Positions 2,351-9,141 of a DNA stretch of 43,774 nucleotides are shown here, piece after piece. The DNA comes from Betaproteobacteria bacterium (GTDB taxonomy: Bacteria; Pseudomonadota; Gammaproteobacteria; Burkholderiales; SG8-41). Under the pieces are notes generated by a model, which made no database searches, had not been told where the DNA came from, and saw nothing but the letters and a program-made list of their open reading frames with translations. Each line of letters begins with the position of its first letter. Position 1 is the stretch's first letter. The DNA lies in contig JAKFUS010000054.1 of assembly GCA_021732605.1 (NCBI GenBank), forward strand, positions 1-43,774, given 5' to 3'. Position numbers and translations under genes: made by a program.

Positions 2351-4963
2351 TTAGTGTTTTTTGCCGGGATCGCCTTGCGCCAGTTCGCGCAGCCGGTAGA
2401 GCAGATCCAGCGCGTCCCGCGGCGTCAGCGCATCGGGGTCGCAATCGCGCAGGGCATCTACGGCCGGATGCGGTTCCGGCACAGTGGGTTCATTCGCAGG
2501 CATGGAACCCGAGAACAAATCCCCTTGTGGCACTTGCGCCGCAGCCGCGGCTTCAAGATCGGCCAGGCGTTTTTTCGCGCTGCGGATCACGGCACCCGGT
2601 ACGCCCGCGAGTTGCGCGACCTGCAGGCCGTAACTGCGGCTTGCAGGTCCTTCCTCGACGCTGTGCAGGAACACGATGCGATCCTTGTGTTCGACGGCAT
2701 CAAGATGCACGTTCGCCACATGCTTGAATTCCACCGCAAGTTGCGTCAGTTCGAAATAGTGTGTCGCAAACAGCGTGTAACAGGCATTGCGTTCGATCAG
2801 GTGGCGCGCAATGGCCCAGGCCAGCGCGAGGCCATCGTAGGTTGAGGTGCCACGGCCGATTTCATCCATCAGCACCAAACTCTGTTCCGTGGCGTGATGC
2901 AGGATGTAAGCGGCCTCAGTCATCTCGACCATGAACGTCGAGCGGCCGCCGGCCAGATCATCGGCAGCGCCGATACGCGTGAATATGCGGTCCAATGGTC
3001 CGAGCTTTGCGCTTGTTGCCGGCACGAACGATCCGCAATGCGCGAGCAGCGCAATCAGTGCGGTCTGCCGCATGTAGGTTGATTTACCGCCCATATTCGG
3101 GCCGGTGATCAGCAGCATGCGGCGCGCCGCCGATAGGCGCGCGTCGTTGGCGATGAACGGGCTGGGCTGTGCTTCAACCACCGGGTGCCGTCCGCCGCTG
3201 ATGTCGATCACCGCTTCATCGGTGAATTCCGGCGCCGACCAGTTGAGTGCGACCGCGCGTTCGGCGAAGGTCGCCAGCATGTCGAGTTCGGCCAGTGCCG
3301 CCGCGACGCGTTGCAGTGCCGGCACCTCCGGTGCGAGTTTGACCAGCAGCTGATCGTAGAGCAGCTTTTCGCGCGCCAGTGCGCGATCCTGCGCCGACAG
3401 CGCCTTGTCTTCGAAGGTCTTCAGCTCCGGCGTGATGTAACGCTCGGCATTTTTCAGCGTCTGCCGGCGGCGGTAATCGTCGGGCACTTTTTCCGACTGT
3501 GCGCGTGTGACTTCAATGTAAAAGCCGTGTACGCGGTTGAATTCGACCTTCAGCGTGGTGATGCCGGTGCGCGCTCGCTCGCGTAATTCGAGTTCGGCGA
3601 GAAAGGCACCGCAGTTGTCCTGGATGCCGCGCAGTTCATCGAGATCGGCGTCGTAGCCGTCGGCGATCACACCGCCTTCGCGGATTACCGACGATGGTTC
3701 CGGTCTGACCGCTGCGATCAACAGTGCCGCCAGCTCGTGCTGCGGGGCGAGGTCAGTGGCCAGTGCGCGCAGGCGGGCGGTGCTGGCCGCAGTTTCGATA
3801 TTTTCCAATGCCTGCACCAGTTCCGGCAGGCGTTGCAGTGAGCTGCGCAGCCCGGACAGGTCGCGCGGCCGCGCGGTGGCGAGGGCGATACGTGCGGCGA
3901 TGCGCTCGACGTCGGCAAAATGTTTCAGCGCGTTGCGGGCGGCGGCATGGCGTTCGTTATCGATCAGCTCGGCAACGGCCTGATGCATGGACTGCACCAG
4001 CGCACGGTCGGTCAGCGGGTGGTGCAGGGCGTGGCGCAACCGGCGGCTGCCCATGCCGGTGGCACAGGTATCGAGCAGCGACAGCAGCGTCGGTGCCGGC
4101 TCGCCGCGGATGGTTTCGGTGAGTTCCAGATTGCGCCGCGTCGCCGGATCCATGCGCAGATAAGCGCGCTCGGATTCCACGGTCAGCGCGCGGACATGGG
4201 CAATGGCCGATCCCTGCGTGGATTTGGCGTAGTCGAGCAGGGCGCCGGCAGCAGCGACAGCAACATCCAGTGCTTGGGCGCCAAAACCGCTCAAGTCATG
4301 GGTTTCAAACTGCATACACAAGCTGCGCCGCGCGGTGTCGGTATCAAAGCGCCACGGCGGCAGGCGACGGACGGCAGTGCCGTCGTCGATCATGTCCAGT
4401 GTCGCGCCGTCAGCGATCAGGATTTCCGCCGGACGCAGGCGTTCAATCTCGGCAGCAAAATTCGCCGGTGCGGTTTCCATCACGCAAAAACGCCCTGAAG
4501 CCAGCGACAGCCAGGCCAGCCCCAGCAGATTTCCGGCACGGTGCGCGGCGAGCAGCAGGTTTTCGCTTTTTTCGTCGAGCAGCGCCGATTCGGTCAGCGT
4601 GCCCGGCGTGACAATGCGCATCACCTTGCGCTCGACGGGGCCTTTGGACGTGGCGGGGTCGCCGATCTGCTCGCAGATCGCAACGGACTCACCGAGTTTT
4701 ACCAGCTTGGCCAGATACGGATCCAGCGCATGGAAGGGCACACCGGCCATCTTGATCGGCGTGCCGGCCGATTCGCCGCGTGAGGTCAGTGTGATGTCGA
4801 GCAGCCGTGCCGCGCGTTCGGCATCGTCGAAAAACAGCTCGTAGAAATCGCCCATGCGGTAGAGCACCAGCTGATCGGGATGCTCCGATTTGATGCGGAG
4901 ATATTGCTGCATCATGGGACTATGTTTAGCGAGCGTGGTGTTCGTTAAATCAATGTTCTTCAT
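2351..4963 (-). CDS. mutS: DNA mismatch repair ATPase MutS
   Basis: An 870-residue MutS that recognises mismatches and small loops. The N-terminal mismatch-reading motif is intact (F40-Y-E42 in RMGDFYELF). The C-terminal ABC-type ATPase has Walker [10 protein letters not shown], Walker [13 protein letters not shown] and the downstream ATHYFELT segment. The length is slightly above E. coli MutS (853). The start at 4963 leaves 16 residues before MMQQYL, close to the E. coli arrangement; no good Shine-Dalgarno precedes it. It diverges from the methyltransferase at 5086 with 122 bp between them. The restriction-modification-like island starts immediately upstream, and one island gene is a Vsr-type nuclease, whose classical pathway uses MutS and MutL. 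Confidence 0.97.
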
Positions 4964-5085
4964 GAAATTATTACTAAATCGTTGATGCAGAAACCGTGCT
5001 CGGTGTTTTGGTTGCCGACTAACGGGTGCTCAATTAGAGCCTCACTGAAACATCTTTCGGGTTTTTAGTTTACTATGCGACTATT

Positions 5086-6234
5086 ATGGCCGCGAAAAAG
5101 TCTCTTGTTTCCAAAAAGTTACCGGCGACCATCGACGTTTGTTCAGGGGCCGGCGGGCTTTCCTTAGGCGCCGCTAGAGCGGGTTTTTCAGTGGCGGGTG
5201 CGATCGAGATCGATCACCGTGCGATGGCCACGCACCGTATGAACTTTGCAGGCACTGCACATTTCGAGACCAGCGCGACGCGTCTTTCCGGAAGCGACAT
5301 CTTAGCCGGCGCAGGACTCAAAAAAGGCGAGCTGATCGGTTTGGTCGGCGGTACGCCCTGCCAGGGGTTCAGTCGCATCGGCGCGCGAAAAGCGTACGAT
5401 CCGCGAAGCTTGGTGTTTCGTCACTTCATGCGCTTGGTGCGTGAAACTAAGCCAGTTTTTTTTCTCGCTGAAAATGTACCGGGTATATTGGACAAGCGGC
5501 ATTCGCGCCGCGTTGCCTCCGCGCTCGATCTGGTGCCGCGAAAGTACAGAATCCTTGAACCGTTCACGTTGCGAGCGAGCGATTACGGAGCGCCGACGAA
5601 TAGGGAGCGGGTGATTTTCTTCGGTTACGACCCTTCTCGCCTGAAGGATGTAGACGCCGACGACTTCAAAGCGGCGCAGGTGGGCGAGGCGGTGACGGTG
5701 AGGGAGGCGTTACACGGGCTACCGTTGGATATTATGCCCGAGTGGATCGACGAGGCGGATAGTTGGAGACCTGTTCACGTCACGAAGTCGGGGTATTTTT
5801 TCGACCGGATCGTCGGAGCTGTTCCCGAAGGGTTGGGTGAACCCACAGCCATGAAAAGATTCTTCGACGAGGACCGGGTTCACGGAAATTTCGGCACCCG
5901 GCATTCCGAGACTATCATCCGGCGATACGGCGCTCTGGAATACGGCGAAGCCGATCCGATTACAAAATCGATTCGCCTTAATCCGTCTGGGCTGTGCCCC
6001 ACCCTGCGCGCCGGCACCGGCCCGGATGCCGGTTCGTTTCAGGCGGTGCGTCCGATACATTATTTGCGGCCTCGCGTGATAACGCCGCGAGAAGCTGCCC
6101 GATTGCAAGGGTTTCCCGACTGGTTTCGGTTTGACCGTACCAAATGGCACAGCTTCCGCCAGATTGGCAACAGCGTCAGTCCGTTGCTCGCAGAGGCGAT
6201 AATGCAGGTAGTGGCGAAGGCAGTTAAAATCTGA
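5086..6234 (+). CDS. DNA (cytosine-5) methyltransferase
   Basis: A 382-residue C5-cytosine methyltransferase. Motifs run in the canonical order: motif I DVCSGAGGLSLG (17-28), motif IV GGTPCQGFS with nucleophile C92, motif VI ENVPG (129-133), motif VIII around NRERVIFFG (171-179), a target-recognition region at about 200-310, then motif IX/X RLQGFPDWF and QIGNSVSPLL. It should methylate cytosine in a short specific site that the sequence does not reveal. No Shine-Dalgarno is visible before the ATG, and I see no good promoter. Its stop lies 3 bp from the stop of the opposing operon, so the two units are tail to tail. The genes from here to 8991 use more AT-rich codons than their neighbours, suggesting transfer. 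Partner candidates are the vsr, ATPase and unknown genes at 6238-8991. Confidence 0.95.
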   Translation: MAAKKSLVSKKLPATIDVCSGAGGLSLGAARAGFSVAGAIEIDHRAMATHRMNFAGTAHFETSATRLSGSDILAGAGLKKGELIGLVGGTPCQGFSRIGARKAYDPRSLVFRHFMRLVRETKPVFFLAENVPGILDKRHSRRVASALDLVPRKYRILEPFTLRASDYGAPTNRERVIFFGYDPSRLKDVDADDFKAAQVGEAVTVREALHGLPLDIMPEWIDEADSWRPVHVTKSGYFFDRIVGAVPEGLGEPTAMKRFFDEDRVHGNFGTRHSETIIRRYGALEYGEADPITKSIRLNPSGLCPTLRAGTGPDAGSFQAVRPIHYLRPRVITPREAARLQGFPDWFRFDRTKWHSFRQIGNSVSPLLAEAIMQVVAKAVKI

Positions 6235-6237
6235 TGG

Positions 6238-7194
6238 TCATTCCTCGATATTGGCGAAGGACGGGAAGTAGCGGTAAACACTTGCGAAACTATTTATTAG
6301 GTCGCTCGTAATGTGAGCCGGATCGAGCGGGAATTCAGCGGGGTCGACGGGATCCGGTAAGCGTCCCTTCAAGTAAGCAATCTCTTTGAAAGTCAATGTC
6401 GGAGCGTCGATTTTCACGGCTCGCTCGTCGTTTGAAATATTTGCTGTTTGCAGTAACTTCGGCTCTCTATTCAGATGTTCATCCTGTTCTTCGGAGGGGA
6501 ACAACCAACCGTAAGTTGCCATCTGCATGCCGTCGCGATAACGAAAATTAAATATCTGTCGCATTCGAACCGCGTGGACCTCCCCCGCAAATCGATCGGA
6601 CAGAGCGGATTGCAACCGCATGGTAATAGCGTTTCGGCACAACTCTCCGAATTTGTCGTCGCTTGCCAGCGATGTCCCGTATGTGGCTGGTCGGTAATTT
6701 TTGGACAGCGCTGCCTCGAATTCTTTTAATTTTCCTTTGTTCGTACCAGGAGTGCCTCCATTGACCGTCACAATAAGTGCGCTGCCGGCCTGACATTTCG
6801 ATGCGATGAGCCCTATATCTCCGAGTTTGAGGTCGTCTAGATAGCCGTAGTAATCGAGCCATACGATCACAGGTCGCTCATCGAACACAGCCAACTCCGG
6901 CAAAACTTTATAAGTCGTGCCGAATTTCATTTGAATACAATTGAATGGCCGGTTCCAAGTGTAACGCGTCGGGTTTTCAGGATCTTGTTCGATGCTGAAC
7001 ATGTTGTTTATGCCAAGCACCTTATGCATTAATATGAAGTCCGAAAAGTAGTAGGCACCCATGCCGATATAGGCGTAGCGCGCCGGATCTTCGAATCGCA
7101 CTAGCCGTAGTAGCGCCTCGACGATCATTTGGCGTTCGATGCGTTTGGCTGGCCGCAGATTGAAATTCAGCCAATCGTGAATGACAGGCATCAT
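6238..7194 (-). CDS. Unknown Rossmann-like protein of the methylation island (putative methyltransferase fold)
   Basis: A 318-residue protein, third gene of the vsr-ATPase operon; its ATG overlaps the ATPase stop by 4 bp (ATGA), implying translational coupling. I do not recognise it with certainty. A Rossmann or class I methyltransferase fold is suggested by AYIGMGAYYFSDF (41-53, glycine loop G44-M-G46), an acidic residue after the next strand (SIEQD, E69), a strand ending in WLDYYGYL (112-119), and a hydrophobic strand SALIVTVN (138-145). A DPPY/NPPY motif and a PC motif are absent, so it is not a standard DNA amino- or C5-methyltransferase. The fixed operon position suggests a core component. 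Alternatives are an O-methyltransferase-like enzyme, a SAM sensor, or a nuclease too divergent to recognise. Confidence 0.8.
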   Translation of the reverse strand: MMPVIHDWLNFNLRPAKRIERQMIVEALLRLVRFEDPARYAYIGMGAYYFSDFILMHKVLGINNMFSIEQDPENPTRYTWNRPFNCIQMKFGTTYKVLPELAVFDERPVIVWLDYYGYLDDLKLGDIGLIASKCQAGSALIVTVNGGTPGTNKGKLKEFEAALSKNYRPATYGTSLASDDKFGELCRNAITMRLQSALSDRFAGEVHAVRMRQIFNFRYRDGMQMATYGWLFPSEEQDEHLNREPKLLQTANISNDERAVKIDAPTLTFKEIAYLKGRLPDPVDPAEFPLDPAHITSDLINSFASVYRYFPSFANIEE

Positions 7195-8546
7195 CTACCC
7201 TTGATGCCGGTATTTAGGTAAAGATCGAATGTCATCCCGCCGGCCTCCGCGGGTGTATCGGCGTCCAAATGCTTCATGACCGCCTTGACGCTGCGGGTGT
7301 CGCGGCGGTACTTGATATACGTCCACTGAGCTTCCTTAGCGGGGGCGCCCGCCTTAGGGCGCACGAATTTCACGCTTGCCGCCACTGATGTTAACGCTAC
7401 GGTTTTCGCTTTTTCTAAAGTTTCCGTTAACGGTTGGGTGTCTTGTTTGATTTCTTTGTCCAAGTCGTCTAAAAAGCCGAACACGTCTTTCATCGCAGCG
7501 ATCATTCTTAAACGGAATCGCCGATACAGCGGATGCTCGACGTCTACGCCCGTCTTGGTGGTGTTCCAAGGAAGTAAATTAGGATCGTCGGATTCGAAAT
7601 ACACGAAGCCCCTGAACCTAGAATACTGATGATGGTAATTCGGAATCTTGTCGCCCTGTTCCTTGTTACCCCATCCTGTGATCGCGGAGGTGTCGCACCG
7701 TAATATTGTTCGGCCATTGCAAACGATATTCCACCCTGCGAGATCGTTGTCCTTGTCGGATACACCTGCGAAAAGGCTGACTGTAACTATGCCACCGTCT
7801 AGGGTGATTTTTTCCGTCGTATGTATCGGCTTGATCGCTTTAGATTGGTATACCTGCACAGCTTCGCTAGCAGCCGGCACCTTATTTAGCGATATCGACA
7901 ACCCCGCCGTCAACGCAACGGATTGCTTATCTTCGATCAGGCCTTTCAAATCTACTGCGAATTGTGCTAATCCGAATCTATCCGCCACGCCGGATCGTAA
8001 GGCTGTTACTTCGATTTTAGTGCCTACCTTCTCAACGCCAGATACGGCCTTGCCATGCGTCTGAAATTGGAATGTCCATGGCTTTGTTTTGTCGTCGTCG
8101 GCAAGCCACCTATCCACTGGGATCTCAAGAGTAAAAAAATCCGCTTTGGTGCGCGACTCGACCTTGATTTGTTTCCCCATTTTTAGAAGCGCTCTCTTCA
8201 TACCTACACCGAAGTTTCCGATGGTGTTTTTGGGTCCGTCGAGCGGCGCGTAATCGCCCGCTCGGCCAAAGCGGAAGGCGTAATCCCGTGCGAGATCTAA
8301 TGGGATGCCGCCGCAGTTGTCCACGATCGAAAACCGGGTTTTGTCGAAAGTGATTTCTACCCAATATTTTGCCATGCTGCCTTTGCCGCCCACCCTGCGC
8401 GCGCCGTCGACCGCGTTGTCCACCAAATCCAGTATGGCGTCTTCGAGGCTTATGTCCTTCGTAAGAACATAAGCAACTAAGCGCTTGCTGGGGCTGGCAT
8501 CGACGATATCGTCGTCGTCATCATTGACTACCGATTTTTTTGCCAT
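7191..8546 (-). CDS. GHKL-family ATPase (MORC/MutL-like, HATPase_c_3 type)
   Basis: A 451-residue protein with an N-terminal GHKL ATPase fold. The N box is AILDLVDNAVDGA (37-49), with N44 as the magnesium-binding Asn and D40 where MutL, GyrB and Hsp90 have the catalytic Glu. The G1 box is IVDNCGGI (74-81) and the G2 box TIGNFGVGMKRAL (108-120). The acidic N-tail (DDDDD near residue 10) and the C-terminal half have no motif I can name. GHKL ATPases of this kind act as ATP-gated clamps on DNA. Prokaryotic MORC/MutL-like relatives are known in restriction-modification neighbourhoods (Iyer, Abhiman and Aravind). The start overlaps the vsr 3' end by 26 bp, and the stop overlaps the next gene by 4 bp. 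Confidence 0.9.
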   Translation of the reverse strand: MAKKSVVNDDDDDIVDASPSKRLVAYVLTKDISLEDAILDLVDNAVDGARRVGGKGSMAKYWVEITFDKTRFSIVDNCGGIPLDLARDYAFRFGRAGDYAPLDGPKNTIGNFGVGMKRALLKMGKQIKVESRTKADFFTLEIPVDRWLADDDKTKPWTFQFQTHGKAVSGVEKVGTKIEVTALRSGVADRFGLAQFAVDLKGLIEDKQSVALTAGLSISLNKVPAASEAVQVYQSKAIKPIHTTEKITLDGGIVTVSLFAGVSDKDNDLAGWNIVCNGRTILRCDTSAITGWGNKEQGDKIPNYHHQYSRFRGFVYFESDDPNLLPWNTTKTGVDVEHPLYRRFRLRMIAAMKDVFGFLDDLDKEIKQDTQPLTETLEKAKTVALTSVAASVKFVRPKAGAPAKEAQWTYIKYRRDTRSVKAVMKHLDADTPAEAGGMTFDLYLNTGIKGR

Positions 8547-8991
8547 CAGGGTTGCTCCCTTGATTCAGACGCATTGTTTTCTTTATATCGTCGAGCCGTT
8601 TCGCCAGCCTTATGGTTAGCGTATCGACCTTCCGTGTCGCGCACTCCCAAACTACGATCCCCTGCCAGTCGAGCGCGGACAATTTTCGCACAGCCTGCCT
8701 GTCCCGCTTTTTATTCGCGGCGACCTTCGGTTCCCCACTACGCGATGTTCGACTTCGGTAGCTTTCTTCGTCACAACTGTGGCCATGCCATAAACACTTA
8801 TTCAAGAACACAACGGTCTTCAAGCGCGGCAGCACGATATCAGGCCTGCCGGGTAGGTCGGCGCGATGCAGTAGGAACCGAAAACCCAAACCGTGGTTCA
8901 TCCGCCTTACCAATATTTCGCCAGCCGTATGTTTGGTACGCACCCGCGACAACAACGCGCTGCGTCTCTCCCGTGTCAGGTGATCGGCCAT
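8521..8991 (-). CDS. vsr: Very-short-patch repair (Vsr) family endonuclease
   Basis: A 156-residue Vsr-fold nuclease, first gene of a three-gene operon. Family features are the opening DHLTRERRSALLSRVRTK, E25, LHRADLPGRPDIVLP with D51 (metal-binding Asp), W68-H69, N93 and D97. The four zinc ligands are at C66, H71, C73 and C117, the same numbering as I recall for E. coli V.EcoKDcm. The metal-site loop differs: FLNKCLWHGH replaces the usual FTHGCFWH form, so T63 becomes Leu and H64 becomes Asn. Classical Vsr nicks beside T:G mismatches made by deamination of 5-methylcytosine, which fits the methyltransferase opposite. Co-transcription with a GHKL ATPase suggests a restriction role instead or as well. 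Confidence 0.93.
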   Translation of the reverse strand: MADHLTRERRSALLSRVRTKHTAGEILVRRMNHGLGFRFLLHRADLPGRPDIVLPRLKTVVFLNKCLWHGHSCDEESYRSRTSRSGEPKVAANKKRDRQAVRKLSALDWQGIVVWECATRKVDTLTIRLAKRLDDIKKTMRLNQGSNPDGKKIGSQ

Positions 8992-9080
8992 AGACTAAAG
9001 TGCGCGCCTGTTGCCTTGGAGTCGATGTCGAACCCGAGTTTGCCACATTTTTGAGCAGTACATCTCGACTGCAGCATTGT

Positions 9081-9104
9081 GGCGGGGCATCGACGGTCCC
9101 CGCC
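9081..9104 (+). other. GC-rich hairpin in the leader of the DadA-like gene
   Basis: GGCGGGG at 9081-9087 pairs with CCCCGCC at 9098-9104 around a 10-nt loop. It lies 38 bp before the ATG at 9142 and has no following T tract, so a simple intrinsic terminator is unlikely. It could be a leader structure or chance in GC-rich DNA. Confidence 0.35.
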
Positions 9105-9141
9105 GCAGTTGTGTTGTAGCATCGGCAGCCATACAGCTTGA

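Follow-up and report, generated by a model that had tools for sequence, protein, structure and literature searches.

The closest described relatives of the system considered here are the prokaryotic MORC/paraMORC neighbourhoods, in which a GHKL ATPase with the MORC signature lies beside cytosine methylases, Vsr and HNH genes (Iyer, Abhiman and Aravind 2008, PMC2292703). A superfamily II helicase occurs in ~70% of these neighbourhoods, as a usual partner rather than a strict requirement, and a minority that contains a methylase or nuclease and no helicase probably includes the kind described below (PMC2292703). The HEF_HK/Response_reg_2 loci likewise hold HATPase_c_3 proteins beside C5 methyltransferases, Vsr and HNH_2 (Bellieny-Rabelo 2021, PMC8011034). 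We analyzed a 43,774-nucleotide stretch of DNA, contig JAKFUS010000054.1 of a Betaproteobacteria bacterium (GCA_021732605.1), hereafter referred to as the window, which contains a four-gene island encoding a C5-cytosine DNA methyltransferase (C5 enzyme), a PF20553 protein with a predicted methyltransferase fold, a GHKL ATPase and a Vsr-type endonuclease (Table 1). Taken together, the findings discussed below lead us to favor, as the probable interpretation, a DNA-modification-gated, restriction-like defense module, the restriction arm of which would be the pair formed by the MORC ATPase and the PF20553 protein. What is new is a variant of the MORC-associated restriction kind that has a methyltransferase-fold partner; the set is real and mobile, and is likely a defense module. 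In contrast, sections 4-6 of the text of the MORC/paraMORC study, as distinct from its figures, describe no methyltransferase-fold partner, and the words phosphorothio- and prophage are absent from its main text (PMC2292703). The same study proposes DNA looping together with a nuclease and a helicase, neither of which was recognized in the minimal cassette described here. The HEF_HK loci differ in that the partner is Response_reg_2 rather than PF20553, and they are read as a two-component system (PMC8011034).

Table 1. Coordinates of the four island genes and of the inserted segment within the window
Feature	Position	Strand	Details
C5-cytosine DNA methyltransferase, modification component	5086..6234	+	382 aa; PF00145 2.5e-50, TIGR00675 dcm 5e-41, PADLOC MTase_II 9.6e-88
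PF20553 protein with predicted methyltransferase fold, constant partner of the GHKL ATPase	6238..7194	-	318 aa; Pfam PF20553 6.7e-80
MORC-type GHKL ATPase (from sequence signature)	7191..8546	-	451 aa; HATPase_c_3 PF13589 6.1e-11, MORC4 top profile match, GWxhhCNxR signature
Vsr-type T:G mismatch endonuclease, putative accessory	8521..8991	-	156 aa; PF03852 6.5e-24
Inserted island	4919..9108		replaces ~110 bp of the congener's mutS-DAO spacer; blastn with L188 (G373), GC content

The open reading frame (ORF) coordinates and layout are as the initial annotation, made from the sequence alone, had described them: the C5 gene and the minus-strand operon are convergent and spaced 3 bp apart, and the operon genes overlap by 4 and 26 bp. 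The complete set recurs with identical order and orientation in L023 (Hydrogenophilales) and L030 (Variovorax), indicating that the arrangement is not due to chance. As in type II restriction-modification, a methyltransferase is present; unlike such systems, the other three proteins show no recognized cognate endonuclease family except that of Vsr, a nicking endonuclease according to PADLOC. The annotation's remark that no type II restriction enzyme is recognizable holds among the families listed for the four proteins (Pfam, NCBIfam and PADLOC; for the C5 protein, the best 25 of 62 PADLOC rows), none of which is a restriction endonuclease family other than Vsr, and a novel nuclease is possible. 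PADLOC models fit the C5 enzyme and Vsr, and none matched the ATPase or the PF20553 protein of the window at E 0.1, indicating that at least one defense catalog, in the copy used, misses the pair. A full-text search of PMC, preprints elsewhere lying outside its coverage, found no relevant paper joining Vsr, HATPase/GHKL and anti-phage defense.

As a query for relatives we used an alignment of five ATPases, as the window ATPase alone matched nothing in genome contigs. This alignment found 75 relatives in viral contigs, a highly redundant set, and 407 in genomes of bacteria and archaea; the genome counts below refer to the best 80 of the latter. Neighboring genes were called with profiles built in this analysis, within 6 kb for C5, Vsr, HNH and SspD-like genes and within 9 kb for Dnd genes. 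The PF20553 gene adjoined the ATPase gene in 80/80 genome loci, with a gap of at most 73 bp, and these loci were distributed over 14 named phyla, one of them archaeal. Both genes were likewise present in 70 of the 75 viral loci, the remaining five carrying longer ATPases of ~580 aa. The PF20553 alignment contains no segment conserved enough to query viral contigs, but the reverse search of genomes from PF20553 identified five further positive genomes in the class and phylum samples (L200-L204), all of which have the ATPase adjoining, the genes of the Dnd-type L204 being broken into several frames. Three records found with the PF20553 protein also have the ATPase adjoining or near. Finally, co-divergence was strongest between the ATPase and the PF20553 protein (rho 0.64), compared to 0.35 between the ATPase and the C5 enzyme and 0.20 between the PF20553 protein and the C5 enzyme (57 loci including the window, 199 permutations). 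These results bear out the suggestion of the initial annotation that the 318-residue protein is a third core part of the system. Two individual loci depart from the simple arrangement. In L006:8205-13350 (Sinorhizobium meliloti KH46 pSymA), 3 kb with transposase-like insertion sequence ORFs separate the ATPase from a shortened PF20553 ORF, which suggests an interrupted copy, and L011:9977 onward (Rhodoferax), which holds the nearest relative of the window ATPase, has, besides the pair and a C5 gene, another PF20553/ATPase pair in inverted orientation.

The annotation had treated the 318-residue protein as unknown; it in fact belongs to an existing database family, Methyltransf_35 (PF20553, putative O-methyltransferase), which it matches with 269 bits compared to a cut-off of 27. 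The family was recovered for 66/66 aligned members including the window protein. Alignments comprised the window together with 65 (PF20553) or 69 (ATPase) sequences from 75 relatives each, after pairs >80% identical were dropped. A confident AlphaFold model predicts a class I S-adenosylmethionine (SAM)-methyltransferase fold with an intact SAM site, and the residues of this site are conserved, with Y42, G46, E69, D114 and Y115 invariant in 66/66 and G44 in 65/66. The widest structural match, over 222 residues, was to the tRNA methyltransferase Trm1 (Foldseek TMq 0.45, top among the 50 matches listed). A full-text search on either family name, PF20553 or Methyltransf_35, found no paper, and by that search the family is named but unstudied.

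Judged from its motifs, the GHKL ATPase bears the prokaryotic MORC signature. Its PF13589 match lies above the cut-off, and across 70 sequences N44, D76, G80, G110 and G115 are invariant and D40 nearly so. A loosened form of the MORC motif of the S5 domain, GhXhhpXXRhl, was present in 157/166 ATPases of at least 400 aa, compared to 6/315 control ORFs and 19/1660 shuffles, while GWxhhCNxR was present in 155/166 ATPases and 0/315 control ORFs. The corresponding window motif is GWNIVCNGRTI, with T at one position where the strict motif wants a hydrophobic residue. When a profile of the 70 sequences was compared with the PDB, human MORC4 (7k7t) ranked first and was the sole match below 0.1, albeit a weak one (whole-sequence E 0.0034, best single stretch 0.081); it was followed by Hsp75 (0.26), a ribosomal protein (0.33), SMCHD1 (0.34), a topoisomerase (0.35) and MORC2 (0.48). 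Neither the window island nor the gene on either side of it showed a superfamily II helicase. A longer GHKL family of ~580 aa with a GWxxxCNxR-like signature also occurs beside C5 enzymes, in the viral loci L150, L152, L153, L158 and L159, which lack PF20553, and in L044:13756-15486, a locus with both kinds. C-terminal slices of these longer proteins gave no Pfam family above cut-off. In Pfam, seven of the larger GHKL proteins have the ATPase domain alone, and a HEPN domain, considered for the larger GHKL proteins without PF20553, was rejected, since no HEPN family was listed for the C-terminal slices of six proteins. More distant ~620-aa GHKL ATPases are encoded on haloarchaeal plasmids (L008:8971-10821 and L009:8926-10794) with one or two Dam-type adenine methyltransferases, L009 lying near DptF/DptG.

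While the PF20553 protein is constant, the DNA-modification partner is exchanged. Among the 80 genome loci, 58 have a C5 enzyme, 15 have Dnd genes (13 plus 2 partial), 4 have an SspD-like gene, and in 3 no partner was found; among the viral loci, a C5 enzyme was present somewhere in 74/75. The non-C5 loci have phosphorothioate genes as neighbors: PADLOC, run on one representative of each neighbor family from which the census profiles were built, matched DndC (1.7e-191), DndA, DndD/PbeC, PbeA and a DndE domain with a HerA-like ATPase (DndH/DndE), and a frequent order in Dnd-type loci is DndC, DndD, DndE-HerA, ATPase, PF20553. In four Clostridia-type loci (L081:299-2591, L082:8983-11308, L087:992-3338 and L090:8993-11317), a 330-aa phosphoadenosine phosphosulfate reductase/SspD-like gene directly precedes the pair and no Dnd genes were recognized; two of these loci were called with Pfam and PADLOC and the other two with a profile from this analysis. 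Such a three-gene cassette is possibly a minimal sulfur-based DNA modification. One of the partial Dnd loci, L072, is weak because it was called on DndA alone, and the DndA profile also matches ordinary cysteine desulfurases. Indeed, it matches two of these near SUF genes in the window, where the DndC and DndD profiles from this analysis had no match over the whole length. Of the three genome loci in which no partner was found, two (L031 and L076) are close to the end of their contig.

On an ATPase tree, the C5/sulfur label switches 5 times, with at least 3 of these switches forced by starred branches, compared to a shuffled mean of 16.6. This was a quick tree with several long rows, and its 92 rows comprised 79 of the 80 genome loci (L015 being too short), the window, ten viral loci, L005 and L007. 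The small number of switches relative to the shuffle indicates that the partner was replaced repeatedly and yet inherited over long stretches. HNH_2-type genes accompany the cassette in a few loci, as an optional extra. Phosphorothioate systems are known to combine a modification module with an exchangeable restriction module. The Dnd, Pbe and Ssp systems thus resemble the loci described here in their plan, while differing from the window island, which has no sulfur genes. A further hint at kinship came from Mza: the ATPase of a Dnd-type locus (L022:9968-11302) weakly matched PADLOC MzaB over residues 14-144 (E 3.2e-5), whereas the ATPases of the window and L105 had no PADLOC match; the comparison with Mza was confined to MzaB.

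Relatives of the pair also occupy mobile and defense-related sites. In 21/21 viral contigs with both genes, the P2-type portal-to-replication gene interval (gpQ-gpA) holds the ATPase, PF20553 and C5 genes, otherwise only ORFs <200 aa, and no Vsr; the two flanking families match annotated E. coli genes in 22/22 and 21/21 members. The P2-type cassette is carried by 45/5426 complete E. coli genomes. This interval is a hotspot of anti-phage systems (Rousset et al. 2022, PMC9122126). The word methyltransferase is absent from the main text of that study (PMC9122126), and the cassette may already be among the 169 P2-site systems of its Table S5B. The Pf inovirus PfAC20 begins with the same three genes (ATPase, PF20553 and C5), again without Vsr, of which its authors noted only the cytosine methyltransferase of an incomplete system (PMC11878078). 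ORF4 of PfAC20 was considered as a hidden Vsr and rejected, since it aligned with 19% identity and lacked the Vsr core. On the Microvirga plasmid pR24_2, Dcm, Vsr, the ATPase and the PF20553 gene lie among the drm genes of one DISARM locus, and L100 is likewise a DISARM-like locus. The window itself differs from DISARM, as neither the island genes nor the flanking mutS and DAO-family genes are drm genes.

The window island has a low GC content, is inserted at a site that is empty in a congener, and stands alone among housekeeping genes. In a blastn comparison with congener G373 (L188), homology ends at window position 4918 and restarts at 9109, G373 having ~110 bp in between. The GC content within the island is 0.51-0.56 (0.49-0.58 gene by gene), compared to 0.57-0.65, and mostly >0.60, over the rest of positions 1-14 kb. 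The order mutS, DAO oxidoreductase, TctC, amdA-like, SDR, TPR and CocE is common to the window and G373, which lacks the island. In G375 (L187), mutS is followed by TPR and CocE, the DAO-to-SDR block being missing, and in the other 8 congener regions compared the DAO gene is not at the same place or the region stops too early; the stretch upstream of mutS is therefore variable within the genus. Counting the genome of the window each time, PF20553 was present in 1/21 genus, 3/369 class and 5/398 phylum genomes, and 0/14 control genomes were positive for the family. No larger defense island was found around the window cassette: ten more large ORFs (13.8-43.8 kb), compared with protein families rather than by a PADLOC search of the flanks, were housekeeping or metabolic or had no strong match. 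Nine of these match an Mfd-type helicase, GGDEF/EAL, release factor 3, a CocE-type hydrolase, SUF, two cysteine desulfurases, YdjM and TctC; the tenth matched nothing strongly. Thus, of the idea that the set moves as a unit and lies in defense islands, mobility agrees with the insertion, and a defense setting applies to relatives (P2 gpQ-gpA site, Pf cargo, DISARM and Dnd loci) while the window set lies outside any larger defense island.

In combining a modification enzyme with a constant pair, and in travelling as cargo at a phage defense site, the cassette follows the logic of restriction-modification, with the pair in the position of restriction. We therefore regard a modification-gated, restriction-like module as probable. 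As judged from its family, the C5 methyltransferase would mark host DNA at its own sites. The MORC-type ATPase, which by family would close as a dimer round DNA upon ATP, may then sense or engage unmarked DNA, and the ATPase and its PF20553 partner would together disable the unmarked DNA or the infected cell. Vsr may serve as an accessory that repairs T:G mismatches arising from deamination of the product of the C5 enzyme. Since no nuclease is recognizable in the minimal cassette, the effect might be trapping or compaction plus a second methylation, an effector that methylates another target, or recruitment of a host nuclease. In view of the effector domains exchanged among other GHKL defense proteins, which are listed below, a methyltransferase acting as effector would extend a known scheme by a further type. 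DNA compaction or silencing has been proposed for eukaryotic MORC proteins. A non-nuclease immune arm, in which the MORC ATPase and a second SAM methyltransferase act on unmarked DNA under 5-methylcytosine or phosphorothioate marks, perhaps by compaction or silencing, is a tentative suggestion that we hold to be possible rather than probable. Several points weigh against the restriction-like interpretation. As a restriction effector, a second methyltransferase is unusual, and the pair may instead help modification. In L040 the PF20553 gene is split and no modification partner was found, and L202:6780-13345, found via PF20553, holds the pair without a recognized modification gene, beside a divergent operon of a 469-aa unknown, an SNF2-type helicase and a NOV_C protein. 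The statistics are drawn from the top 80 of the 407 relatives and from viral contigs that are highly redundant, and all 45 E. coli copies are at least 99% identical. With regard to Vsr, its divergence follows that of the ATPase (rho 0.55) more than that of the C5 enzyme (rho 0.29; 32 loci), the window Vsr sits in the ATPase operon and not beside the C5 gene, and a Vsr-type nuclease can serve defense, as ARMADA helicases end in one (PMC12458937).

Of the alternatives, the one with the most in its favor, albeit one we consider unlikely, is that the pair belongs to the modification side, where it would load, remodel or further modify DNA so that the mark is made or read, as in epigenetic regulation, without any restriction. 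The predicted methyltransferase fold with its intact SAM site, a modification enzyme in 77/80 loci (2 partial) and a minimal cassette without a recognized nuclease are all consistent with this possibility. However, Dnd and C5 enzymes are known to modify DNA without partners like the ATPase and the PF20553 protein, a pure helper fails to explain the gpQ-gpA and Pf cargo sites, and the L202 pair has no recognized modification enzyme. Abortive infection is improbable: here the ATPase would sense unmarked or phage DNA and switch on the PF20553 protein, which would methylate a host target such as RNA, leading to growth arrest. The match of the predicted PF20553 structure to a tRNA methyltransferase is compatible with this scenario, as are, by analogy, the effector domains exchanged on other GHKL defense proteins, which include the PD-(D/E)xK effector of VcSduA (PMC12137116), TIR and nuclease extensions (PMC2292703) and HEPN (PMC3710099). 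Shedu VcSduA likewise has a GHKL ATPase domain, which is required for phage defense, but there it resides in a single protein with a fused PD-(D/E)xK nuclease (PMC12137116).

The initial annotation had instead proposed that Vsr may be the restriction nuclease and that the GHKL ATPase, acting as a clamp, licenses it on unmethylated or foreign DNA. MutL stimulates Vsr, and Vsr is co-operonic with the ATPase in L023 and L030 as in the window; together with the shared divergence and the ARMADA precedent noted above, an ATPase-Vsr interaction in the style of MutL and Vsr is possible. The licensing model is nevertheless not supported by the distribution of Vsr and has, in our estimation, as little chance of being correct as abortive infection. 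Vsr was present in 32 of the 80 genome loci and 10 of the 75 viral loci, and its absence from the remaining 48 and 65, from all 19 sulfur-type loci and from the P2-like cassette led us to reject it as the core nuclease. Within C5 loci it is optional, occurring in 31/58 compared to 0/19 sulfur-type loci (Fisher p 8.7e-6 with kinship ignored; 0/17 once both partial Dnd loci are set aside). Along the ATPase tree, the presence or absence of Vsr switches 16 times across the 70 C5 rows (14 across the 59 genome and window rows). A phosphorothioate system would have no use for a T:G mismatch enzyme, and Vsr thus fits 5-methylcytosine systems. Consistent with this, Vsr lay within 150 bp of the C5 gene in 34/43 loci and of the ATPase-PF20553 pair in 20/43. 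The window Vsr scored 97.8 bits against TIGR00632, just below the cut-off of 97.85, and its residues 7-134 aligned with E. coli Vsr (1cw0, 1e-19) with the active-site stretch ungapped. It keeps D51, C66, W68, H69, C73 and C117, with N instead of H at position 64. Of these active-site and zinc residues, D51, C66, W68, H69 and C73 are conserved in 45/45 Vsr proteins and H64 in 29/45, and retention of D51, W68 and H69 resembles a true mismatch enzyme. Vsr is therefore best read, from its distribution and conserved residues, as help for the C5 enzyme in T:G repair. In having a C5 enzyme and a Vsr with a conserved active site, the island resembles Dcm/Vsr very-short-patch repair, from which it differs in having two additional constant genes and an optional Vsr. 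That the whole island is a DNA-repair module made up of the C5 methyltransferase, Vsr and a MutL-like ATPase, the alternative offered by the annotation, is the least probable of the readings considered here, even though mutS adjoins the island and the Vsr active site is conserved. The mutS gene is an older neighbor that predates the insertion, adjoining the DAO gene in G373 without the island, on which basis a tie to mutS was rejected; moreover, the only PF20553-positive genome among the 21 of the genus is that of the window, and the pair is found with Dnd genes and, without Vsr, in a prophage defense site.

If the pair restricts without cutting, and does so under two unrelated marks, then self/non-self marking would be separated from nuclease attack, unlike in standard restriction-modification. 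How MORC ATPases repress transposons is still debated, and a compact phage-borne cassette of three genes, as in E. coli prophages, would allow a MORC mechanism to be tested in a bacterium. Repression of transposons by MORC ATPases is described in plants and animals (PMC4268658).

Lastly, a ~306-aa family, the L052 representative of which has no Pfam match, recurs near the cassette in eight loci (L006:13454, L041, L050, L052, L053, L070, L101 and L102).

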